Virus record (IMG/VR): IMGVR_UViG_3300008266_001651
Location: 1 to 28,519 of that record
Direction: 5' to 3' (one strand)
DNA length: 28,519 bases
Origin: a virus
Shown: positions 5,904 to 28,519 of the stretch, one piece after another
Position numbering within the stretch: position 1 is the stretch's first letter
Layout of the letters: the number at the start of each line of letters is the position of its first letter
Program-made: the position numbers and the translations under genes
Notes under the pieces: generated by a model
Databases searched by the model: none
What the model was told of the DNA's origin: nothing
What the model saw: the letters and a program-made list of their open reading frames with translations, nothing else

Positions 5904-6305
5904 TCAGAGCTGGAAGATACCGCTTGCGTTCCAATTGATCGAAATGTCGCCGCCGTTTGGCGTGACCGGCAAACCCGTGACGTTGGTGTCCATCCACGCC
6001 ACCAGGCGCGAAGTGGCCGCGCTTCCGGTGTCGATGTAGATGAGCAACGCCTCAACGCTGTTGCCCGTGACCGCCGTGTACGTCACATCGTCGCCGTCAA
6101 AGAGTCCATTGGTAACGGTTGTGTTACCGATCGTTTGTGGCGTTCCTACAACACCAGAAACGCTCGAGTAGAACTCGTCCGCGGCGTTGTAGTTGTAGAC
6201 GCCCGTGTCGATCAGGGCTACCTTGACCGTGCCGTCGTTAAGGTCGACGTTGGCAGCAGCGTCAAGTAGCGCCTGCTTGTAGAGTGGGTAAATCGCGTTT
6301 GCCAT
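5904..6305 (-). CDS. Conserved small virion protein
   Basis: A 133-residue protein starting MANAIYPLYKQALLDAA, with the motif VKVALIDTGVYNYNAADEF and a later EALLIYIDTG segment. The pattern, in which an N-terminal helix precedes KVALxDT and beta strands, is common in phage structural regions next to portals. It lacks a membrane segment. It lies directly downstream of the portal gene, so a connector or decoration role is plausible. Function not established. Confidence 0.72.
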   Translation of the reverse strand: MANAIYPLYKQALLDAAANVDLNDGTVKVALIDTGVYNYNAADEFYSSVSGVVGTPQTIGNTTVTNGLFDGDDVTYTAVTGNSVEALLIYIDTGSAATSRLVAWMDTNVTGLPVTPNGGDISINWNASGIFQL

Positions 6306-10355: not shown

Positions 10356-10826
10356 TCAACGACCCCCCCCTACCTCAACCACCTCACTCTCATTACTAGT
10401 CCAGTGACTTTGCGGAGAATGTTCAATCGCCTCAACAACTTGCGCTTCTATGGTCTCTGGTTGTGCCGCAGATGTGCCGATTTGCCGGCCCGCAAGCCAT
10501 CCAAGCTGCAGAACTATGCCGCCTTGGATGTCCTGATTGACTTGGATTGGAATGACCTTGCCAACCATGTTGGCGAAGATTTGGCGGTCTTGTATGCCTC
10601 CGTTGGCGCGGTCTATGAGCCAGCCAGCCAGGCCCTCTGCGTGGCAGTCCCTCGCGGCGATCTCAACAGCTTGCCGCAGGCTGATGGTCAGCGCGTTGGC
10701 CTTGCCCTTCTGACGGCCTTTCCGGTTGGTTCTTGGGTCGCCCTTGATGAATGGCTTGCCACGCAGCGGGTTGTCCTGCTTCTCGCCTGCAGTTTGCTGC
10801 ATGTCAGATTGCGCGTTACTCATCAT
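10356..10826 (-). CDS. Terminase small subunit candidate
   Basis: A 156-residue protein encoded directly before the large terminase. The N-terminal part has KPFIKGDPRTNRKGRQKG, the DUF5681-like signature common in DNA-binding and small-terminase-like phage proteins. A helical segment (TISLRQAVEIAARDC) follows. Small terminases recognise the packaging site and load the large subunit; here the role is inferred from position and signature. Two adjacent ATG codons are possible starts, and the first overlaps the stop of the upstream HNH gene. The last codons contain eight consecutive G, a slippage-prone run three codons before the stop. Confidence 0.72.
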   Translation of the reverse strand: MMSNAQSDMQQTAGEKQDNPLRGKPFIKGDPRTNRKGRQKGKANALTISLRQAVEIAARDCHAEGLAGWLIDRANGGIQDRQIFANMVGKVIPIQVNQDIQGGIVLQLGWLAGRQIGTSAAQPETIEAQVVEAIEHSPQSHWTSNESEVVEVGGGR

Positions 10827-20189: not shown

Positions 20190-20632
20190 CCACCACACTA
20201 CGAACCGCCGCCCAGCAGGCGCTGGAATTTATCAAAGCGACAAACGCAAGTTCTAGCTTCTGGCTTGTACCGGAAAGCAATCTCAACAAGACAGTCAAAG
20301 CCCTCCGCGCCGCGCTGGAGCAGCCGGAGCTGGCACCAGAACGGCGGGTTCCATCATCACTTTGCCCGCGCCATCGAACGCTATTTAAAAGGCCAGCAAT
20401 GAACGACCCCGTCAACAACCCCGTCCACTACACCCGCCACCCCAGCGGCATTCAAGCCATTGAAGTCACCGAGCACATGAATTTCTGCCTTGGCAACGCC
20501 GTAAAATACATCTGGCGCGCAGACCTAAAGTTAGACGCGATCGAAGACCTGAAGAAAGCGCGCTGGTATCTCGACCGCGAAATTGCAAGGCGCGAAGGCC
20601 AGCGTCCTGAAAGCGAGCCGCATGGTTACTAA
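20186..20632 (+). CDS. Fusion of a small helical phage protein with a DUF3310 domain
   Basis: A 148-codon frame in two parts. Residues 1-50 (MTTTLRTAAQQALEFI and TVKALRAALEQPE) match the start of a common small phage protein. Residues 72-148 (from MNDPVNNPVHYTRHPSG, with NFCLGNAVKYIWRADLK and DLKKARWYLDREI) are a complete DUF3310 domain, which normally stands alone. The DUF3310 part can start at an ATG at 20399. In another frame just before it, GGFHHHFARAIERYLKGQQ ends in a TGA overlapping that ATG, a likely remnant of the first gene's original end. A deletion probably created the fusion. Function of DUF3310 is not established. Confidence 0.7.
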   Translation: MTTTLRTAAQQALEFIKATNASSSFWLVPESNLNKTVKALRAALEQPELAPERRVPSSLCPRHRTLFKRPAMNDPVNNPVHYTRHPSGIQAIEVTEHMNFCLGNAVKYIWRADLKLDAIEDLKKARWYLDREIARREGQRPESEPHGY

Positions 20633-21107
20633 GTACATTCTCGGCATCGACCCCGGCATCAAGGGCGCGGTGGCGGTGCTTACGCACGACGGCAAGCTGG
20701 TCGAGGTGTGGGACATGCCCACGCTCGAGGTCAAGGTCGGCAAGTCGATCAAGAACCGCATCAGCCCCGAGCTGCTGTCCCAAGAACTGCGCAACTGGGA
20801 CGTCATGATCGCCTATATGGAGGCAGTCAGCGCCAGCCCGCAGATGGGCGTGACGTCCGCCTTTGCCTTTGGCGAGGGATTCGGGATCGTCAAGGGCGTG
20901 CTGTCTGCGATGGGCATTCCACTTGCCTTAGTCCCGCCTGCCAAGTGGAAGCGGGACATGAACCTGAACGCGGCGAAGGATGGCTCTCGAGCCAAGGCGA
21001 TCGCCATGTGGCCTAACCAGGCAGGCGAGTTCAAGCGGGCGAAGGATGATGGTAGGGCCGAAAGTGCCCTCATCGGTGCCTGGGGTATTGCGAATTCCTC
21101 ACGCTGA
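20622..21107 (+). CDS. RuvC-like Holliday junction resolvase
   Basis: A 161-residue protein starting MVTKYILGIDPGIKGAVAVL; GIDPG carries the first catalytic Asp of the RNase H fold. IAYMEAVSASP supplies the Glu and KDDGRAESALIGAWG the C-terminal acidic pair, the pattern of RuvC-type phage resolvases. It would resolve recombination intermediates and branched DNA before packaging. Its position after the annealing/nuclease set fits. The ATG at 20622 lies inside the end of the previous gene; the frame is open 13 codons further upstream, but homology begins here. Confidence 0.85.
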   Translation: MVTKYILGIDPGIKGAVAVLTHDGKLVEVWDMPTLEVKVGKSIKNRISPELLSQELRNWDVMIAYMEAVSASPQMGVTSAFAFGEGFGIVKGVLSAMGIPLALVPPAKWKRDMNLNAAKDGSRAKAIAMWPNQAGEFKRAKDDGRAESALIGAWGIANSSR

Positions 21108-21113
21108 TGTGAA

Positions 21114-21138
21114 AATGTCTCCGTCACAAGGAGACATT
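21114..21138 (+). promoter_or_regulatory. Perfect hairpin covering the integrase ribosome binding site
   Basis: AATGTCTCC (21114-21122) and GGAGACATT (21130-21138) are exact complements around a seven-base loop. The Shine-Dalgarno AAGGAG lies in the loop edge and the 3' arm, two bases before the hairpin end, and the ATG follows at 21141. In the mRNA from the upstream genes, the ribosome site of the integrase would be paired. As DNA it is also a palindrome that could bind a regulator. Confidence 0.65.
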
Positions 21139-21140
21139 CT

Positions 21141-22091
21141 ATGGCCCTCAAACTTCGCAACGGCACTTACTGGATCGACGTTCAAATCAAGGGCGTCCGC
21201 ATCCGCGAGACGCTCAGGACTGGCGACAAGAAGCAGGCTCTGGCCGCGCATGACCTGCGCCGGGCTGAGCTGTGGCGCGGTGTCGTCATCAAGGAAAAGC
21301 CGCGCAAGACCTTCGCCCAGGCGTGCGAGCGCTGGCTTGTCGAGAAGGCGGGCAAGAAGTCGATCGAGACTGACATCCTGCGCATCGCCATCATCAAGCC
21401 CAAGTTGGGCGCGACGCTGCTGACCGAGATTACCAAGGAGAAGGTCGAGCGCCTGCTGCCCAAGGAGGCCAAGCCCGCCACTCGTAACCGCTACCGCGCA
21501 CTCATCCGCGCCATCCTGCGAGCCGCTGAGCGCGACTGGGAGTGGATCGACAAGGCTCCCTTCATCAAGGCCGAGCGCGAGTCCAACAAGCGCGAGACGT
21601 TCTTGACGCGAGAGCAGGCAGAGGCGCTGCTCGAGAACCTGATGCCCAAGTACCGCCCCGCTGTCCGGTTTGCAATGCTGACCGGCCTGCGCCGCGCTAA
21701 CGTCTTGGGCCTGCGGTGGGAGAACGTCAACCTTGAGACGGCAACCGCCAAGGTCGACGCGGAGGAAGCCAAGGGCGGCAAGCAAATCATCGTGCCGCTC
21801 AACGACGCCGCGGTCGCGTTGCTGACCGCGCTGCCGCACCGCGAGGGGTCTGTCTTCGGTATCGGCCACATCAGCCGCAGCGTGTGGCAGGGCGCGTGCA
21901 AGAAGGCAGGCGTGCCTGACTTCAGGTTTCACGACCTGCGCCACACCTGGGCCTCCTGGCACGCTCAGGCGGGTACGCCGATTCAGGTGTTGCAGGAGCT
22001 GGGAGGCTGGGCCTCGCACAGCATGGTTCAGCGCTACGTCGCTTTCGCGCCGCAGCATCTAGCCAATGCTGCCCGTGCCGTGTCGATTTGA
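21141..22091 (+). CDS. int: Tyrosine-type integrase
   Basis: A 316-residue phage integrase. Residues 1-50 (LRNGTYWIDVQIKGVRIRET and on) form an AP2/DUF3596-like arm-binding domain. Residues 55-140 are the core-binding helices. The catalytic domain shows Arg184 in LTGLRRANVLGLRW, HDLRH at 264-268, Trp290 in LGGWASHS and the nucleophile Tyr299, all in the canonical order. It catalyses recombination between phage attP and a host attB, here probably a tRNA-Ser gene. It ends directly at the first 17-base arm-type repeat of the attachment region and is followed by a rho-independent terminator. Translation may be limited by the hairpin before its start. Confidence 0.93.
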   Translation: MALKLRNGTYWIDVQIKGVRIRETLRTGDKKQALAAHDLRRAELWRGVVIKEKPRKTFAQACERWLVEKAGKKSIETDILRIAIIKPKLGATLLTEITKEKVERLLPKEAKPATRNRYRALIRAILRAAERDWEWIDKAPFIKAERESNKRETFLTREQAEALLENLMPKYRPAVRFAMLTGLRRANVLGLRWENVNLETATAKVDAEEAKGGKQIIVPLNDAAVALLTALPHREGSVFGIGHISRSVWQGACKKAGVPDFRFHDLRHTWASWHAQAGTPIQVLQELGGWASHSMVQRYVAFAPQHLANAARAVSI

Positions 22092-22108
22092 TGTGCCGTA
22101 AATGTGCC
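22092..22108 (+). repeat. Integrase arm-type repeat 1
   Basis: TGTGCCGTAAATGTGCC, two TGTGCC hexamers 11 bases apart. It begins at the base after the integrase stop codon. The same 17-base unit occurs three more times in this region, at 22277, 23007 and 23171. It lies 92 bases (start to start) before the first tRNA-like core. Confidence 0.65.
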
Positions 22109-22144
22109 GCCGCGTGAGCAGCGCGCTACAGGTCGAAATGCTTA

Positions 22145-22171
22145 AGCCCCTGACTGCAGGGGCTTTTTTTT
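22145..22171 (+). terminator. Rho-independent terminator after the integrase gene
   Basis: AGCCCCTG-ACTG-CAGGGGCT is a perfect 8-bp stem followed by eight T. It ends the rightward early transcript before the attachment core. A diverged counterpart with six T lies at the same relative place in the second module (about 23060-23085). Confidence 0.85.
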
Positions 22172-22183
22172 GGCCTAGACCGA

Positions 22184-22222
22184 ATTCCAGTCCAGCGCCT
22201 TGAGCCTCTCGGCCACCTCTCC
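22184..22222 (-). other. attP: attP-like core 1: 5' half of a tRNA-Ser(GGA) gene
   Basis: Read on the minus strand the 39 bases start GGAGAGGTGGCCGAGAGG and end CTGGACTGGAAT. This matches the acceptor 5' strand, D arm and anticodon 5' stem and loop of a bacterial tRNA-Ser with anticodon GGA. The following bases do not pair with the anticodon stem, so the 3' half is absent. This is expected of a phage attachment site whose crossover lies in the anticodon loop. Confidence 0.72.
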
Positions 22223-22276
22223 AATCGTTCAAGATTAATGGCATGCGACAAAGACCTCAAGCGACTTCTATGTGCG

Positions 22277-22293
22277 TGTGCCGTAAACGTGCC
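22277..22293 (+). repeat. Integrase arm-type repeat 2
   Basis: TGTGCCGTAAACGTGCC, identical to repeat 4 and one base different from repeat 1. It lies on the other side of core 1, 54 bases from its end, giving the arm-core-arm layout of an attP. Confidence 0.65.
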
Positions 22294-22312
22294 CAAACAG
22301 TCCAATTACTAG

Positions 22313-22332
22313 AATCACATGCAAGTGTGATT
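22313..22332 (-). other. Inverted repeat after the methyltransferase gene
   Basis: AATCACA-TGCAAG-TGTGATT is a perfect 7-bp inverted repeat just after the methyltransferase stop. It is not followed by a T run on the minus strand, so it is a weak terminator candidate or a protein-binding site of the attachment region. Confidence 0.4.
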
Positions 22333-22338
22333 GCAGCA

Positions 22339-22998
22339 TCAGGCGCTAAACGATAGCCCTTGCTGCTCCATCTTAAGCATGGTGGGCGCGAACATCTGAC
22401 CTTGCGCTTGGGCGCGTTCAATGCGCTCACACGCAATGTCAAAGTATTTACGCTCGCGTTCAATGCCAATGAACTTGCGGCCCATCTCAACTGCAGCAAC
22501 TCCGGTTGTGCCGCTGCCCATGAATGGATCAAGGATCGTGGACGGCTTTCCAAGTTGATCTATGCACCAAGCCATCAACTCAACCGGCTTTTGCGTTGGG
22601 TGCTCTTTGCGGTAAGACAGCACGGACTGGCGGTGCATCTTGGCTGGCCCCTTTTTGTTGCACCAAGCCATCTCACACATAGCCAATGAAAAATCCTGCG
22701 GCTGCACTTTGTCCCAAACAAAGAAGCACTGGCTAGGAGGCAGGTTAAAGTAATTTCCACCCCAGATCACGGCCACTGTGCCTTTGTCTACGCATTCCTG
22801 AATCAACGAGCCATCAGGAGGCTTGTTGTCCCAATCCATGCGCTGATGAGCCTGTCGAACGGGATTGGCGGCAATTCCAATCCCATACGGCGGATCAGTG
22901 ATAACCGCATCGACCTGGGCCAATGTGGGCAAGATTTCTCGGCAGTCGCCATGCCAAAGCTCGGCGTCACCAATGATGATTTTTTGTGGGCAAGTCAC
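22339..22998 (-). CDS. Solitary DNA methyltransferase, beta class (N6-adenine or N4-cytosine)
   Basis: A protein of 219 residues starting with GTG; a stop codon five codons upstream rules out a longer form. The catalytic motif DPPYGIG lies at about 35-41 (VDAVITDPPYGIG), and the SAM-binding motif FMGSGTTGVAAVEMG follows near residue 160. That order defines the beta class. HPTQKPVELMAWCI is the conserved segment before the SAM site. It probably protects phage DNA from host restriction or alters regulation. No restriction enzyme is present. It is the only gene between two attP-like modules, and is transcribed towards the integrase. Recognition sequence unknown. Confidence 0.88.
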   Translation of the reverse strand: MTCPQKIIIGDAELWHGDCREILPTLAQVDAVITDPPYGIGIAANPVRQAHQRMDWDNKPPDGSLIQECVDKGTVAVIWGGNYFNLPPSQCFFVWDKVQPQDFSLAMCEMAWCNKKGPAKMHRQSVLSYRKEHPTQKPVELMAWCIDQLGKPSTILDPFMGSGTTGVAAVEMGRKFIGIERERKYFDIACERIERAQAQGQMFAPTMLKMEQQGLSFSA

Positions 22999-23006
22999 GT
23001 TTTCGC

Positions 23007-23023
23007 TGTGTCATAAACGTGCC
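23007..23023 (+). repeat. Integrase arm-type repeat 3
   Basis: TGTGTCATAAACGTGCC, a degenerate copy (three differences from repeat 2 or 4). It lies directly upstream of the methyltransferase GTG start, 93 bases (start to start) before core 2. This is nearly the same spacing as repeat 1 to core 1, so integrase binding here could affect methyltransferase transcription. Confidence 0.55.
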
Positions 23024-23099
23024 TTGATTGTGAGGGAAACGCGAGATTGCGAAGGCAAAGACCCTTTGATTTGCTTAGGTTTTTTGCGTGCTGAACGCG

Positions 23100-23138
23100 A
23101 TTCCAGTCCAGCGCCTTCGACCGCTCGGCCACCTCTCC
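23100..23138 (-). other. attP-like core 2: 5' half of a tRNA-Ser(GGA) gene
   Basis: This is the second copy of the 39-base tRNA-Ser half, in the same orientation as core 1 and identical at 35 of 39 positions. The four differences all lie in the D arm and loop (GAGCGGTCG instead of GAGAGGCTC on the minus strand), so the copies derive from different tRNA-Ser alleles. The 3' half of the tRNA is absent here too. Beside it, 23139-23151 matches the IHF consensus (WATCAANNNNTTR) except for its first base. Confidence 0.68.
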
Positions 23139-23170
23139 GATCAAGCACTTACGTTTCTCTCAACTCCGTT

Positions 23171-23187
23171 TGTGCCGTAAACGTGCC
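23171..23187 (+). repeat. Integrase arm-type repeat 4
   Basis: TGTGCCGTAAACGTGCC, identical to repeat 2. It ends two bases from the last codon of the endolysin gene. It completes the second arm-core-arm set; its distance from core 2 is 32 bases, against 54 in the first set. Confidence 0.62.
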
Positions 23188-23188
23188 A

Positions 23189-23632
23189 TTAAATCAACGA
23201 TGCTTCCGCGGCCCGCCTACGAACCAATCCGGGCAGCACCTTACCACCACCGCGCACCCATTTCATCAACTCGGCACGCGCCCCAGCCTCGTCGTCGGTG
23301 TTCAGCCGCTTGCGCAGCGTGCTGGCCTGTAGGGCCCCTGTGCCGCAGTTGAAGGCGAAGTCAAGGATCGCCCCCGTCGCCTTCTCGCCCCACTCAGGCA
23401 GCTCAGGACAAAGCTTGAGCACCTTGGGCAGCGCGTGGGTCAGCTCCCACTCCAGCAGTTCCATCGCCCGCTCGCGGCTGATAGGCGGGTCTTTGAGCGT
23501 CACCCGCACCCCGTTCTCGTAGAAGGTCGATCCGACGCCGATGGTGGGGACGTTGGCGGGGCAGAGGTAGGGCTTGAGGTAGAGCCCCTCAAACACCAGG
23601 CACAGGTCGCGAGCGACCGTGATGGCGCTCAT
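23189..23632 (-). CDS. Endolysin, GH24 lysozyme family
   Basis: A 147-residue muramidase. Glu15 (VFEG), Cys24 (YLCPA) and Thr30 (VPTIG) have the exact E-x8-x-x5-T spacing of the T4-type catalytic triad, with Cys in place of Asp, a variant known in phage lysozymes. VGSTFYENG follows. It cuts the peptidoglycan glycan strand at lysis. No signal peptide or SAR anchor is seen at the N-terminus, so it should depend on a holin for export; the gene before it encodes one, with overlapping ATGA. It is the last gene of the late transcript before the attachment region. Confidence 0.88.
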   Translation of the reverse strand: MSAITVARDLCLVFEGLYLKPYLCPANVPTIGVGSTFYENGVRVTLKDPPISRERAMELLEWELTHALPKVLKLCPELPEWGEKATGAILDFAFNCGTGALQASTLRKRLNTDDEAGARAELMKWVRGGGKVLPGLVRRRAAEASLI

Positions 23633-24096
23633 TTCCCGCGCTTGCCCAGCGACCTGTCAGCGAAGAAGAACCCCAGCACCGTCCCGGCCAGGGTGATGTC
23701 CCACTCCTGCATGACCCAGCTCTGGGCGTTGAGCTTGAGCACCCACAGCGCCAACGCAATGGTCGCGGCAGATGGGCGGATGACGCCGTTCCAGATGTCG
23801 ACCACCGCCCAGCCTGAAGGCTTAAACGCCTGCTCCATCGCCTTGCCAAAGGCTTCAGCCTCGGCTGTGGCGACGTTGGCGACCGCCTGAGCCTCGATGG
23901 TCTTGATGCCCAGCTCGCTCTGCAGACGCAAAGCCTCTTGAGTGCGCTGGTGAGCCCTGTCGTCGATCTCGGTCTGAAGTTTCAGCCGCTCAAGCTCAAA
24001 TTTGTGATCCTGCTTCTTGTTGTGCCAAGACGACACCTCGCCCCAGACCATTCTGAAGACGGAACCGCCAAGAAACGAAAACAGAGCTTCCAGCAT
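23629..24096 (-). CDS. Holin, 3TM GTA-type
   Basis: A 155-residue protein. The N-terminus is a short amphipathic segment (MLEALFSFLGGSVFRMVWGE). Residues 28-90 are a charged helix with coiled-coil character. Two hydrophobic segments follow (VIRPSAATIALALWVLKLNA and ITLAGTVLGFFFADRSLGKR). The closing G-F-x-F-A-D-R-S-L motif is typical of the 3TM holin family first named for gene transfer agents. It would permeabilise the inner membrane for the endolysin encoded immediately downstream. Confidence 0.75.
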   Translation of the reverse strand: MLEALFSFLGGSVFRMVWGEVSSWHNKKQDHKFELERLKLQTEIDDRAHQRTQEALRLQSELGIKTIEAQAVANVATAEAEAFGKAMEQAFKPSGWAVVDIWNGVIRPSAATIALALWVLKLNAQSWVMQEWDITLAGTVLGFFFADRSLGKRGK

Positions 24097-24097
24097 C

Positions 24098-24376
24098 TCA
24101 GCGCCCTACAAACCTTGAGCCAAACTGCACGATCGCAAAGATCACCGCAGCCGCGGCCCAGACGCCGACGCCGCGGTTGATCCACTGGTCAACTTTGCGA
24201 TCTGTTTTATGGATTGAAGTCTCATTGACTGCGATCTTCGTCTCGCATTTGCCAATCCGCTCGCCCTGCGACGACTGGCGTTCTTCAATCAGAATCAAGC
24301 GCTGGACGGCGTCCGTTAACTTGTCCACTTTAGCCTCGAGCCGGCCAAAATCGTCGCGTGAGACTGCTGCATCCAT
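24098..24376 (-). CDS. Coiled-coil protein with C-terminal membrane anchor, XhlA-like
   Basis: This protein of about 92 residues starts at an ATG preceded by GAGG eight bases upstream; two in-frame starts just before lack that spacing. Residues 5-60 are a coiled coil (LEAKVDKLTDAVQRLILIEE, then KCETKIAVNETSIHK). The end has one transmembrane segment (GVWAAAAVIFAIVQFGS) and a basic tip. This is the layout of XhlA/holin-accessory proteins. It lies just before the holin and may assist or time lysis. Confidence 0.68.
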   Translation of the reverse strand: MDAAVSRDDFGRLEAKVDKLTDAVQRLILIEERQSSQGERIGKCETKIAVNETSIHKTDRKVDQWINRGVGVWAAAAVIFAIVQFGSRFVGR

Positions 24377-24384
24377 CATCACCC

Positions 24385-24540
24385 TCAGTCGGTTGTGCCA
24401 GCTTTTTCCTGCTGCGTCTGAGCGTTCGCCTGGTCGACAACCTTCTCAATCACTCCTCGTACCTGCCCGTAAGGCAGATTGGCGAGCGCGTTAATGATGA
24501 GCTGCACTTCAGTCGGCTCTAGCTTCAGTTCGATTTCCAT
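24385..24540 (-). CDS. Small lysis-region protein (51 aa)
   Basis: A 51-codon frame, MEIELKLEPTEVQLIINALA then NLPYGQVRGVIEKVVDQ, with a good GGAG site before the ATG. The pattern (a short helix, N-x-L-x-x-L-P-Y/F-G-x-V, a second helix) is common for small proteins next to phage lysis genes. Its function is unknown to me. No membrane segment. Confidence 0.68.
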   Translation of the reverse strand: MEIELKLEPTEVQLIINALANLPYGQVRGVIEKVVDQANAQTQQEKAGTTD

Positions 24541-24599
24541 TGGTGACTCCGTGGTGGGTTAAACAACGCGATGCTGTTGTCGCAACGGCGTTGGCAAAA

Positions 24600-26219
24600 T
24601 TATGCTTCAAGCGCCGCAACACGGGCGCGGAGGGATTGGATTTCTGCAATCAGTAGCGGCACCAGCGAGGACACATCCATCTGCTGGAACTTAGGCGTGC
24701 CGTCCTCGTTGACCTCATCCTTGACGCCGCTGACCGCGTAGGGTGCGTGCTCTTGCGTTTCATGCGCCACCAGCATCGGGCGGGGCTGCGTTGCGCCTTT
24801 CATCAAGCCTTCGTAAACTTTCAGCGCGTCGATGGTTGCGCCGGGATTGGCGACAGGGCCGAGAATGTCTTTGGCGCGATAGTCAGAAGTGGTGTTGTAC
24901 CTGACTAGTCCGCCTGCACGGTTGTAGTCAATGGAACCCCGTGAAGTCACTGTATTTTCTGTTCCAAAACCAACAAACTGAGCGTCGCCCGTTGTCGTTG
25001 CGTTCCAAAAATATGCGGTGTATTGACTAAAAGTTGTGTTTTTACCGGTTATAAGACCAGAAGAACTAGTCGTCCCCACCAGCAAATCACCCCCACTCGT
25101 GATGCGGGCGCGTTCGGTGTTGTTGGTGCCAAACGTGATCGAGCCACTCAACGTATTCCACAAGTCAATGGTGCTGGTTGTGCCACCATAACCAAGGTAT
25201 CCCGATGTCGCGCTATTACTTCCGCCAAAACGAATAATGGATACAGAGCCAGTGGTCAGGTCGCCCGAAGAAACAACACGAACTTCCGTAGTGCTGCCAC
25301 CCGCAACATGCAGACGAGTGCTGGGACTTGTCGTCCCCACCCCCAAATTCCCACTCGCATCCAGCGTCATCGCCTGCGTGAAGGTGATCGCGTTGCCTGC
25401 GGTGCCGGAGGGAGCGGTGGACCATTTGTGCGCGCCAGCATCTTGTTGATACTGTGCGGCAGTTGATGTGGTGATGTATTTCCAGCCAGAATTAAAATAG
25501 GCGTTGGTGTTGATAAAACCGCTGTTGCTTGCAAAGCTAATTGCTTTACCGCCTTCAATTTCCAAGCACGCATCGACGCCCCAAGCACTCGGCGTCACCC
25601 CCAAGCCGAGGTTGCCGGAGGCGTCCAGCGTCATAGCGCGTGCGCTGTTAATCCCAAAAATTAAACTGTTCGCCCCACGGACGTTGATGCCAAAGTCCGC
25701 CGCGCCGGCTGCGGGGGAAACGATGTTCGCGCCGCTGCCGATGTCGCCAATCGAAGTGCCGCTGTTCTGAAAGCGAAGGAACCCGCCGTTGGCATTGGTC
25801 GAGTTGAAGTTGGCAAGCAGCGCGGTTGAGCCGGAATCAACAGAGAGCCTTGCTGACGGAGAAGTCGTGCCAATGCCGACATCACCAGACGCAGTGAACG
25901 TACCAGTAACGCTGCTGCCTGACGCCGTCCACTTCTGCACCTCTGCCGTTTGCACGACAAATCGCGTGTCCGACGTCCCAGCGCGATAGAAGCCGGTGCC
26001 AGTCTCATCCGCCCAGGCAATGCCTGGAACCGTGCTTGTGCCGTTGGCGGCTCGGAAGGCACCCGTCATCCCGCCCGCGCCCGTGCGCGACAGCGAGTTA
26101 GTCATCTCGCTAGCAAGATCGCTCAGCGTCGTATTGGCCCAAGACGACTCGATCGTCGTGCCGGATACGACTGGGTTGCCAGTCGGTAACGTATATGTGC
26201 CAGAACCGTTGCGGGGCAT
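24600..26219 (-). CDS. Tail fibre with C-terminal S74 intramolecular chaperone
   Basis: A 539-residue receptor-binding protein. The N-terminus (MPRNGSGTYTLPTGNPVVSG, then TIESSWANTTLSDLASEMTN) is a conserved virion attachment segment. Residues 100-430 carry beta-structured repeats of the form LDASGNLGVGTTSPS, seen three or more times. From about residue 440 the S74 chaperone follows: TSDYRAKDI with the Ser/Lys pair of the self-cleaving domain, LVAHETQEHAPYAVSG, and the coiled-coil end EIQSLRARVAALEA. These chaperones trimerise the fibre and then cut themselves off. AGGAG lies eight bases before the ATG. Confidence 0.87.
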   Translation of the reverse strand: MPRNGSGTYTLPTGNPVVSGTTIESSWANTTLSDLASEMTNSLSRTGAGGMTGAFRAANGTSTVPGIAWADETGTGFYRAGTSDTRFVVQTAEVQKWTASGSSVTGTFTASGDVGIGTTSPSARLSVDSGSTALLANFNSTNANGGFLRFQNSGTSIGDIGSGANIVSPAAGAADFGINVRGANSLIFGINSARAMTLDASGNLGLGVTPSAWGVDACLEIEGGKAISFASNSGFINTNAYFNSGWKYITTSTAAQYQQDAGAHKWSTAPSGTAGNAITFTQAMTLDASGNLGVGTTSPSTRLHVAGGSTTEVRVVSSGDLTTGSVSIIRFGGSNSATSGYLGYGGTTSTIDLWNTLSGSITFGTNNTERARITSGGDLLVGTTSSSGLITGKNTTFSQYTAYFWNATTTGDAQFVGFGTENTVTSRGSIDYNRAGGLVRYNTTSDYRAKDILGPVANPGATIDALKVYEGLMKGATQPRPMLVAHETQEHAPYAVSGVKDEVNEDGTPKFQQMDVSSLVPLLIAEIQSLRARVAALEA

Positions 26220-26230
26220 GTCTTACTCCT

Positions 26231-28144
26231 TTACTGCATCCCCGCCGCTGCGGGTGCGCCACGAAGAATTGCAAGCAGTTGCTGCTGAGCTGCGGACAGA
26301 GGCTCTCCGCGTGCCAATTGCGCCTCAAGCACCTCAATCATCCGCTGCGGATTTTGCAGCGCTTCGGCAAGCGCCTGGTCGCGGTTGCGGGTTGCCATTG
26401 AACGCAGCGCGTCTATCGCGGTGCGATTGACAGCGCCAACAGGCCCAGAGCCCGTCAGCAAAGCATCTGCTGCGTTGCCAGCCGCCTCAGCGGCGAACGT
26501 ATCGCTTGCGGTGTTGCTGCCGCCGCCAGCCGTTGCGCTTCTCTTAACGCCCTGGACGATGTTCTGCTGGCGCAGAGCGCCAAGGATTGCCTCGAGGCGG
26601 TCGTTGGCAGTCGGGTCAAGCACCAACTCACGACGCGGGCCTCGAGCGGCGTCCAGAGCCCTGCCAAGGCCAGCCTCGGTAACCTTTGGCACATCGCCGG
26701 CAGCATCGGCAGACACGCCTCGCACGCGCCCCGTGGCGGGGTCGACAAACGACTCACGCACCTTGCCTGCAGCCTGAGAAGACCTGACGATGTCAGAGTC
26801 GCGCTTATATCCAGACAGCACGCTTTGCCAACGGTTGTTTGTCGCGTTGTTGAGGATGTTGTCGACCTGTTGCAGCACGCCCATCGTGGCGGGGCTTTCC
26901 CGCGGCGCAGCCTGATAGGCATTGGTCGGCACCATCGGGGCCTTGCTAGCAAGGTTGGCGCGAATGGTTGCCAAGTGCTCAGGCGTAAAGTCAGGCCCAA
27001 GCCGGTCGATCTCATCCGACAGCTGCGTCAGCATGCTGCGCACTGCCGGGTTGCTGGCTTCGGCAGATCGCGCAGCCGCATCCAACGACGACCTGAAGGC
27101 GGACAGATCACGAGCAAAAGCAGGCGCGTTGATCGTGCTCATTGCTTGGTTGTAAAGCACATCCCTATTGGCAGAGCGCGCTGCGCGCTGCGCACCGACG
27201 TTCTCAGCGCCTCGCGTCGCCCGCGTCAGCTCGTCGTAAACAGAGCGCGCTTGCTGCTGGTCAAAGTCGTACCAGTTTGCCCCGCTGCGAGCGCGAGAAC
27301 CTGCCTCAAGGCGCGCAAGTTGCGGGTCTGCTAGCTGCGCTGCCGTTGACAGCGGAATCGGTCCCTGCCGGCCTTGGCGCAGCCGATCAATCGTCTGACG
27401 CAGCACCGTCTGGTCGCCAAGCTCCTGCGCGAGCTGCTCGCCAGCGCGCTCGGTGCCGCCAGACTGCGTCACCATCCGACGCACCTGGTTGCCGCCCGCC
27501 AACACAACAGGCGTAGTCGCGCTCAGAATGGCACCGCTGGCCGCATTGACTGCTCGAGAATCGTCCTTGCCAAGAGGCTCAATTGAGCCCAAAGCAGCGC
27601 CCGTAAGCGCCGCATCAGCCGCAAGAGCGCCCGTGCCAAGGCGCGCCGTCGTTGGGGCAGCGCGCATCATCCCAACAGTACGCGGCAAGGATGTGACGGC
27701 TCTGGTAGCCGCGCCAACAGGCAGCGCCAGCGTCGGCACCACATTGCCAGCGACCTGCAGCGTCTTGCCAACCAACTCGCCACCAGGCGTGGCCTCGGCC
27801 AGCGCAGCATCGCGTTTGCGCTTGTCTTCGACTTCCTGACGCATCGCGGCCTTCTCGGCCTCGGTGCCCGTCATGTCGGTGTACAACTGACGCACGCCAG
27901 TCGACAGATCGGTCATGCCTGCGCCGATGTTGGCGAGCACTTTCTGAGTGCCAGACATGTCATCCAAGACGCCCTGCTGCAACCTTTGACGCTCGGTGTC
28001 GAAGTCCACCATCGAGAAAAATCGGCCAGACGGAATGTCTGAGTAATACTTCTTCCGCAGCGCAATGAGCAATTGATCGTCAGGAACGTCTGAATACATC
28101 GGGAACTTAGCCCGAACTTCAGACATTTTGATTGTCTGATCCAT
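26231..28144 (-). CDS. Internal virion / DNA ejection protein
   Basis: A 637-residue Ala-rich, mostly helical protein. The N-terminal motif KFPMYSDVPDDQLLIALRKK followed by YYSDIPSGRFF is the signature of podovirus internal or ejection proteins. Residues 125-205 contain Gly/Ala-rich hydrophobic stretches (VAGNVVPTLALPVGAA, LGTGALAADAALTGAALGS) that could cross the membrane during ejection. The rest is long charged helices (DFDQQQARSVYDELTRATRG). The start at 28144 has GGAGGAATTG before it. The gene overlaps the upstream gene by one base (TGATG). Confidence 0.72.
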   Translation of the reverse strand: MDQTIKMSEVRAKFPMYSDVPDDQLLIALRKKYYSDIPSGRFFSMVDFDTERQRLQQGVLDDMSGTQKVLANIGAGMTDLSTGVRQLYTDMTGTEAEKAAMRQEVEDKRKRDAALAEATPGGELVGKTLQVAGNVVPTLALPVGAATRAVTSLPRTVGMMRAAPTTARLGTGALAADAALTGAALGSIEPLGKDDSRAVNAASGAILSATTPVVLAGGNQVRRMVTQSGGTERAGEQLAQELGDQTVLRQTIDRLRQGRQGPIPLSTAAQLADPQLARLEAGSRARSGANWYDFDQQQARSVYDELTRATRGAENVGAQRAARSANRDVLYNQAMSTINAPAFARDLSAFRSSLDAAARSAEASNPAVRSMLTQLSDEIDRLGPDFTPEHLATIRANLASKAPMVPTNAYQAAPRESPATMGVLQQVDNILNNATNNRWQSVLSGYKRDSDIVRSSQAAGKVRESFVDPATGRVRGVSADAAGDVPKVTEAGLGRALDAARGPRRELVLDPTANDRLEAILGALRQQNIVQGVKRSATAGGGSNTASDTFAAEAAGNAADALLTGSGPVGAVNRTAIDALRSMATRNRDQALAEALQNPQRMIEVLEAQLARGEPLSAAQQQLLAILRGAPAAAGMQ

Positions 28145-28519
28145 CAATTCCTCCGTTGCCTAAGTCCCAGGGGGTCCGCAGCATTGTCTGCTGGTTGAGG
28201 CGCAGAAGCGGGTCCGGTAGCCGGCGCAGACCCAGGCGGCGGACGCATTGCCCTGCCAGCGCGAGCCTTCAGCGAGTCCATGTAGACCTTGTAGGCGTCC
28301 ATTTTCTGCTTCACAACACCAGGCTTGTCGCCTAGTTGCGGCGTCAGTTCTGCAGCCTTTTGGCGTGCTTCAGACTCGTTGACGCCCGCGCCTGTCGCAG
28401 CACGCAGCAGAGCCTCAGACATAGAGCTTGCAGCCTGTACAAACTTCTGCCGATCCTCGCTGCGCATGGTGTTGGCGATGTCTTCGCCAAACACCGGCAA
28501 CGTGCCGACAACACGCTCA
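28144..28519 (-). CDS. C-terminal part of another internal virion protein (cut by window edge)
   Basis: The frame is open through the right edge, so the start lies outside. The 124 visible residues include FGEDIANTMRSEDRQKFVQA, GVNESEARQKAAELTPQLGD, KMDAYKVYMDSLKARAG and a Pro/Ala-rich end. This helical C-terminal domain resembles the ends of large ejection-type virion proteins. It is coupled to the next gene. Much of the protein may be missing, so the function is a context-based inference. Confidence 0.6.
   Translation of the reverse strand, partial: ERVVGTLPVFGEDIANTMRSEDRQKFVQAASSMSEALLRAATGAGVNESEARQKAAELTPQLGDKPGVVKQKMDAYKVYMDSLKARAGRAMRPPPGSAPATGPASAPQPADNAADPLGLRQRRN

Follow-up and report, generated by a model that had tools for sequence, protein, structure and literature searches.

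Genes and attP-like modules in the window

We analysed a stretch of 28,519 bases, hereafter the window, which comprises positions 1-28,519 of the virus record IMGVR_UViG_3300008266_001651. Pfam and PHROG searches identified portal, terminase, tail-fibre and endolysin genes, all on the same strand, and the portal protein shares 40% identity with a Myxococcus phage Mx8 protein. The order of features is integrase, arm-core-arm, an oppositely oriented methyltransferase gene, a further arm-core-arm and endolysin. The tyrosine integrase gene (21141-22091, plus strand, 316 aa; Pfam Phage_integrase, E 3.7e-29) encodes residues R184, K211, H264, R267, W290 and Y299, which were invariant in 11 of 11 aligned sequences and which we take to be the catalytic residues. 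The methyltransferase gene (22339-22998, minus strand, 219 aa) is of the N6/N4 type (Pfam N6_N4_Mtase, 2.6e-23; PHROG DNA methyltransferase, 3.6e-49), and the first backbone gene beyond this cargo encodes the endolysin (23189-23632, minus strand; Pfam Phage_lysozyme, 1.2e-31; PHROG endolysin).

An earlier note on this DNA had described four copies of a 17-base repeat and two copies of a tRNA-Ser 5' half, and repeat searches and pattern scans reproduced these at the same positions. The repeats are arm pairs of the form TGTGCC-N5-TGTGCC, all on the plus strand: in module 1 at 22092-22108, beginning at the base after the integrase stop codon, and at 22277-22293; in module 2 at 23007-23023 and at 23171-23187, one base from the endolysin stop codon. 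The two 39-base cores lie on the minus strand and are identical at 35 of 39 positions (4 mismatches). Core 1 (22184-22222) carries D-arm allele A (GAGCCTC) and core 2 (23100-23138), identified by pattern scan and alignment, carries allele B (CGACCGC); the anticodon, GGA, was assigned by eye. The distance from left arm to core is 92 in one module and 93 in the other, as reported before, and the distance from the core end to the right arm is 54 in module 1 and 32 in module 2. With up to 3 mismatches allowed, the arm pattern matched 5 times in the window, against a mean of 0.33 in 100 shuffles of which none reached 5, and the core pattern matched twice against 0 expected; the repeats and cores are far above chance. 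The fifth arm-like match (10462-10478, 2 mismatches) is isolated and far from the integrase gene, and is probably due to chance.

The two modules are thus direct-orientation, attP-like sites with cargo between them, in which the arm motifs have been kept and the spacers have diverged, as the earlier note had it. Both consist of a core with arm repeats on either side and an adjacent tyrosine integrase gene, the layout of a lambda-type attP. They are also of phage type and not host junctions: phage genes flank them on both sides, ARAGORN found no complete tRNA in the window, and no tRNA was found in the scanned loci of the Ser(GGA) class. A terminator or its remnant had been claimed at the same place in both modules. 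This holds for module 1, where a strong hairpin (9 pairs, 22144-22165) and T run follow the integrase gene (22144-22171, plus strand), but module 2 has only a weaker match (6 pairs, 23050-23068), and the total from the terminator scan (6) was not clearly above that in shuffles (mean 3.4, sd 1.9). The left half of module 2 does not look like an eroded copy; it resembles a separate sequence family, with 59% identity to the left half of module 1 (shuffled 53%) and 63-79% to the left halves of other cassettes.

Two further features were seen by eye. The short inverted repeat AATCACA-TGCAAG-TGTGATT (22313-22332) is also present in the cassette of the related phage locus L003. Among 16 aligned Ser(GGA) modules, including both from the window, 14 have RATCAANNACTT just outside the core (window 23139-23150), the exceptions being module 1 of the window and module 1 of L003; this motif resembles the IHF consensus.

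One and two modules among related phages

We used the best 80 of 132 viral stretches from a search with the integrase, to which searches with two relatives added more. This gave 115 loci with an integrase match, of which 17 were dropped as repeats of a counted contig or as 100% identical, leaving 98. Ten of these were too short, 14 had no recognisable core and 74 had a recognised core. Near-identical phages remain among the 98 loci, so the following class fractions are not independent: tRNA-Ser(GGA) 5' half (9 loci, two modules in 7 and one in 2), tRNA-Ser(CGA) 3' half (4 loci, two modules in 2 and one in 2), tRNA-Cys 3' half (17 loci, all scored as single-core) and tRNA-His (44 loci, 40 with one core and 4 with a second partial copy approximately 157 bp away, without cargo). 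The integrase-module-cargo-module layout was therefore found in 9 phages among the 98 integrase loci and, with 61 of the 74 loci single-core, is rare outside the two Ser classes. On reading the sequence, one of the 17 tRNA-Cys loci (L063) was found to contain cargo and a truncated second module; a tRNA-Leu called there by ARAGORN was rejected, as the call covers the tRNA-Cys-like core 2 and continues into the endolysin gene. L081, of the same class and with an integrase gene 96% identical to that of L063, has no cargo.

Scans made regardless of integrase gave a similar picture. Ser(GGA) modules were found in 12 stretches, of which 9 had two modules and represented the same seven phages, and Ser(CGA) cores with a GGCACA motif were found in 7 stretches, of which 2 had two modules. 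A whole-record pattern which fits only allele-B cores matched 5 of 12 records. The arm repeat was rejected as a widespread phage motif: TGTGCCGTAAAYGTGCC occurred exactly in 20 stretches, 7 of which belong to this integrase family, and of the other 13, 12 contained isolated matches and one (L082) had a second arm and a tRNA-His. The earlier note had proposed comparing relatives for one versus two modules, and both kinds exist, with L005 and L007 as single-module relatives. It knew of no described arrangement with a doubled attP around a cargo gene; the doubled site is real, but it is recurrent with different cargo and not a one-off. This recurrence indicates a slot for cargo and not a singular doubling of attP.

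The cassettes are approximately 0.9-1.7 kb long with 1-3 recognisable genes, and their cargo varies. In addition to the window methyltransferase we found, in L003, a queuine tRNA-ribosyltransferase-like protein together with a transporter-like protein (Vut_1) and one small ORF; in L006, an N6/N4 methyltransferase of larger size; in L010, L080 and L008, ART-PolyVal-like proteins, above the Pfam cut-off in the first and below it in the other two; in L012, an acetyltransferase-like protein with a weak match; in L023 and, by eye, L069, small ORFs that start with a stretch of the HTPGPW type, one of those in L023 matching a PHROG of unknown function; and in L063, a C5 methyltransferase. No recombinase or transfer family was recognised in the searched cargo ORFs, which comprise all but the second small ORFs of L006, L080 and L010. 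The recognised cargo lies on the minus strand in all 7 Ser(GGA) phages and on the plus strand in L063 and, by eye in both cases, in L023 and L069. AGGA directly adjoins the arm, with a start codon soon after, in 5 of 7 Ser(GGA) cassettes; the window methyltransferase starts with GTG at a distance of 8 nt from the arm, and the stop codon is near the other arm in L080, L008, L010 and L012. With start and stop codons this close to the arms, the cassette is a compact unit. A promoter scan found no promoter-like site at 20900-24200 of the window. Since in most Ser(GGA) cassettes the cargo start codon lies beside the arm and on the endolysin strand, expression would probably be by read-through from the endolysin operon.

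Cargo genes were also considered as carriers of the arms, and this was rejected after looking for their relatives elsewhere. Around relatives of the methyltransferase in 7 loci (L211–L217), including relatives of the window methyltransferase at 73-76% identity in 6 loci, the flanks examined contained neither arms of this kind nor Ser(GGA) cores, and relatives of the effectors in 6 loci (L229–L232, L234, L236) had neither these arms nor any of the tRNA-half cores sought. The cassettes are thus not defined by their cargo. One of these loci, from a related phage, encodes an acetyltransferase-ADP-ribosyltransferase fusion (L232, 3395-4636), parts of which resemble the cargo of L012, L080, L008 and L010, and a neighbouring gene resembles, by eye, the window ORF at 641–1756; this suggests a possible source for the effector cargo.

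Several relatives differ in other ways. In L061 a PAPS-reductase-like gene, just above the Pfam cut-off, follows a single tRNA-Cys module (1242-2190) and a terminator-like stretch (by eye) replaces the second module, so that here the slot is occupied by cargo with only one attP. L006 has approximately 219 extra bases between integrase and left arm (5949-6170), with a small ORF by eye, and the C-terminus of its integrase differs from those of its relatives. A complete tRNA-His gene lies 3' of the integrase gene in 35 of 67 loci scanned (L013-L016, L024, L053 and other tRNA-His-class relatives), and some of these relatives, such as L024, have only a short anticodon-region core by eye. These downstream genes fit the tRNA-dependent lysogeny which a published study demonstrated for mycobacteriophages (PMC10865867).

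Searches of bacterial chromosomes were made for the same elements. The module pattern matched 0 stretches in a genome collection of 84,980 species. Among the best 80 of 481 loci matched by the integrase profile in that collection, the best full-length match was 41%, with higher identities for short segments only. Patterns for the tRNA-Ser matched in 0 of 7 and 0 of 399 genomes, and a looser pattern in 0 of 60 (which are within the 399), although these patterns may misfit the host tRNA. In the stretches and genomes examined we found neither a cassette in circular form, nor an array of three modules, nor a cassette standing alone in a chromosome.

Joints at the cores and ancestry of the half-sites

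Comparison of closely related phages places the boundaries of the variable segment at the cores. L003 and L080 match exactly over 1,217 bp on the left side of core 1 and over 40 bp counted from the start of that core; beyond this they have different cargo, with 53% identity between their cassette-right ends and 73% between their cassette-left ends, and from the first base of core 2 onwards they are again exactly identical, for 538 bp. L080 and L012 have 0 matching bases to the left of core 1 and 91 exact bases from its start. The converse of the first pair is shown by L080 and L010, which are diverged in the integrase gene (71% nucleotide identity), the left arm region (62%) and downstream (59%), and their cassette ends are 96% and 97% identical. 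Their effector proteins share only 61% identity in the best segment despite these ends, so whole cassettes were not transferred unchanged in recent times. The left arm region of L006 is that of L003 and L080, with divergence from both starting 18 nt into core 1, and the core 2 left flanks of L003, L006 and L080 diverge 0-4 bases before the core. If one point serves both joints, it would lie in ATTCCAGTCCAGCGCCTT, the first 18 bases of the core, which covers the anticodon loop and stem. This is the region in which a tRNA-targeting tyrosine integrase is expected to act. The integrase genes of these three phages are 93-100% identical and their cargos are all different. It should be noted that L006 breaks the rule of allele A in core 1 and allele B in core 2, as both of its cores are B-type, and that the single-module L007 carries allele A, which would not be expected had the crossover taken place at the core's left end.

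The half-sites on either side of the cores fall into separate families. For left half-sites, mean identity was 73% among cassette-left sequences, 71% among phage-left sequences and 56% between the two (shuffled 53%); for right half-sites it was 72% among cassette-right, 72% among phage-right and 60% between them (shuffled 52%). As the loci are related to each other, these means are descriptive and not independent. In the window, the module 1 left half was 55–79% identical to the phage-left halves of relatives (79% to L003, L006 and L080) and 53–69% to cassette-left halves, and its right half was 62–84% identical to other cassette-right halves and 50–62% to phage-right halves. For module 2, the left half was 63–79% identical to other cassette-left halves and 44–60% to phage-left halves, and the right half was 56–75% identical to other phage-right halves and 47–56% to cassette-right halves. 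On the basis of these identities, module 1 is a phage left half joined to a cassette right half, and module 2 a cassette left half joined to a phage right half. The arm pairs beginning at 22092 and 23171 thus belong to phage halves, and those at 22277 and 23007 to cassette halves. The two modules had been thought to come each from a different relative; instead both are hybrids whose ancestry switches at the core. The natural unit therefore runs from core to core (22184-23099, 916 bp), inserted into one attP, and this is the segment that we propose as the mobile cassette. The left arm lies 92-93 nt from the core in 7 of 7 Ser(GGA) cassettes, in a comparison for which arms were chosen by pattern, so that conservation of the motif is partly by construction.

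Proposed origin of the cassettes and comparison with known systems

The hybrid half-sites, the joints at the cores, the variable cargo and the retention of arms and spacing can all be read in the sequences. With good but not complete confidence, we interpret the core-to-core segment as a non-autonomous, attP-bearing gene cassette which was inserted site-specifically into the single ancestral attP of the phage. Here it would hold one DNA methyltransferase gene and its own attP-like site, without a recognisable integrase. A circle of cassette-left, core and cassette-right would insert into phage-left, core and phage-right at the tRNA-Ser core, most likely through the phage's own tyrosine integrase, judging by the sites used. 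This would yield phage-left with cassette-right as module 1 and cassette-left with phage-right as module 2, which is the arrangement seen. As a core and its two arm pairs are retained in each product, excision, exchange and leaving-behind are possible in principle: the cassette could be excised, swapped between co-infecting or tandemly integrated phages, or remain at the tRNA gene of the host, and either of the cores might act as attP and so form the host junctions. That cassettes are exchanged among these phages, perhaps still, is the best reading of the comparisons.

We weighed this against three other explanations. That the double module is an artefact of assembly or binning is extremely improbable: the records are metagenomic contigs, but identical double-module stretches occur in separate ones, namely the window and L095 (100% over 8,189 bp, window 20331-28519, with a difference only in a 121-base piece near the L095 end), L003 and L004 (100%, 6,393 bp) and L011 and L012 (100%, 6,981 bp), and the metagenome numbers differ within each of the latter two pairs. 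A more serious alternative is that the modules were made once, by tandem prophages or aberrant excision, and that homologous recombination later replaced the cargo when phages co-infected a cell, the short cores and arms acting as patches of identity and Int being idle after the first event. Joints within the core might also arise by homologous recombination there. The cores do offer up to 39 bp of shared identity, and cargo inside cassettes is mosaic, as seen in the effectors of L010 and L080; there is also cargo without a second module in L061, and the second module of L063 is truncated. We nevertheless consider a passive slot of this kind unlikely, because several comparisons place the joints at the cores, with the L006 comparison narrowing this to 18 bp, because separate families of cassette and phage half-sites need recombination at the core itself, and because arms (chosen by pattern) and spacing are kept on both modules.

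It is also conceivable that a second prophage or island, integrated at the same tRNA and since decayed, was trapped by composite excision via the outer sites, so that the second module is the leftover att site of the decayed element. The same hybrid modules would be expected once from the accretion and cis-mobilization of ICEs and IMEs described in PMC5704250. As the whole story this would predict one history per lineage, yet the close backbones of L003, L006 and L080 carry three different cargos and one family of cassette ends is found in two backbones, which makes it distinctly improbable. Tandem integration may well be how cassettes first arise.

Under the cassette reading, the larger proposal is of an integron-like phage system, in which the integrase of lysogeny would also capture and exchange minimal attP-bearing cassettes, many with genes for DNA modification or effectors, at a duplicated attP, leading to swapping of cargo and possibly to islands at tRNA genes; the balance of evidence for and against this wider claim is about even in our judgement. 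If true, it would give temperate phages a concrete route to swap accessory genes site-specifically and not by random recombination, the genes in question being DNA methyltransferases, ADP-ribosyltransferase-like proteins and others, perhaps anti-defence cargo. The origin of phage 'morons' beside attP would become testable, and the cassette site suggests a naturally modular cargo slot.

Among the papers listed in the literature searched, to which subscription papers and preprints are mostly external, none concerned a phage with cargo between two attP sites, which does not prove absence. Several known systems share parts of the arrangement. As in the attP of lambda-type integrases at tRNA genes, there is a tRNA-half core with arm-type pairs on both sides beside int; unlike in these, there are two attP-like sites with cargo between them and the core of the Ser(GGA) class is the 5' half of the tRNA. 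Helper-embedded satellites (HE-PICIs) are described in PMC10111431 as having their own integrases and being located in late genes. The cassette resembles them as a second mobile element which is nested in a phage genome and would be excised with the phage, but no integrase was recognised in it and its site is attP. More generally, the recombinase carried by phage satellites (PICIs, tycheposons) was absent from the searched cargo ORFs.

Cis-mobilizable elements (CIMEs), according to PMC5704250 and PMC3146451, are elements from which the genes for integration and transfer have been lost and in which attL and attR have been kept. As in these elements and in accretion, the cargo lies between att sites, some of them hybrid, which would be usable by the integrase of a neighbour; no integrase or transfer gene was recognised among its searched ORFs (the second small ORFs of L006, L080 and L010 excepted), and it stands in tandem with a helper with which it could be co-mobilised. 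Unlike CIMEs, the cassette is approximately 0.9-1.7 kb, is flanked on either side by genes of the phage and varies even among close relatives. It was found in phage contigs and not in bacterial chromosomes, the module pattern matching 0 stretches in the genome collection.

In integrons, small gene units with attC sites are inserted at one fixed position next to the gene of a tyrosine recombinase, IntI. Like integron cassettes, the units described here are compact, occupy a fixed slot by a tyrosine recombinase gene, have a constant orientation within a class and have a start codon near the recombination site. They differ in that the sites are attP-like, with tRNA-half cores and arm pairs where integrons have attC, in that the recombinase matches the Pfam family Phage_integrase where integrons have IntI, and in that no array of more than one cassette was seen, the stretches examined having no more than two cores at any locus. 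The integron features used in this comparison are partly taken from PMC11389934.

With one defining feature lacking for CIMEs (chromosomal location) and for integrons (attC and IntI), we regard the arrangement as a variant form of known kinds. It is nearest by mechanism to the accretion of cis-mobilizable elements and nearest by behaviour to integron cassettes, and it would join phage attachment sites, cis-mobilizable elements and integrons.
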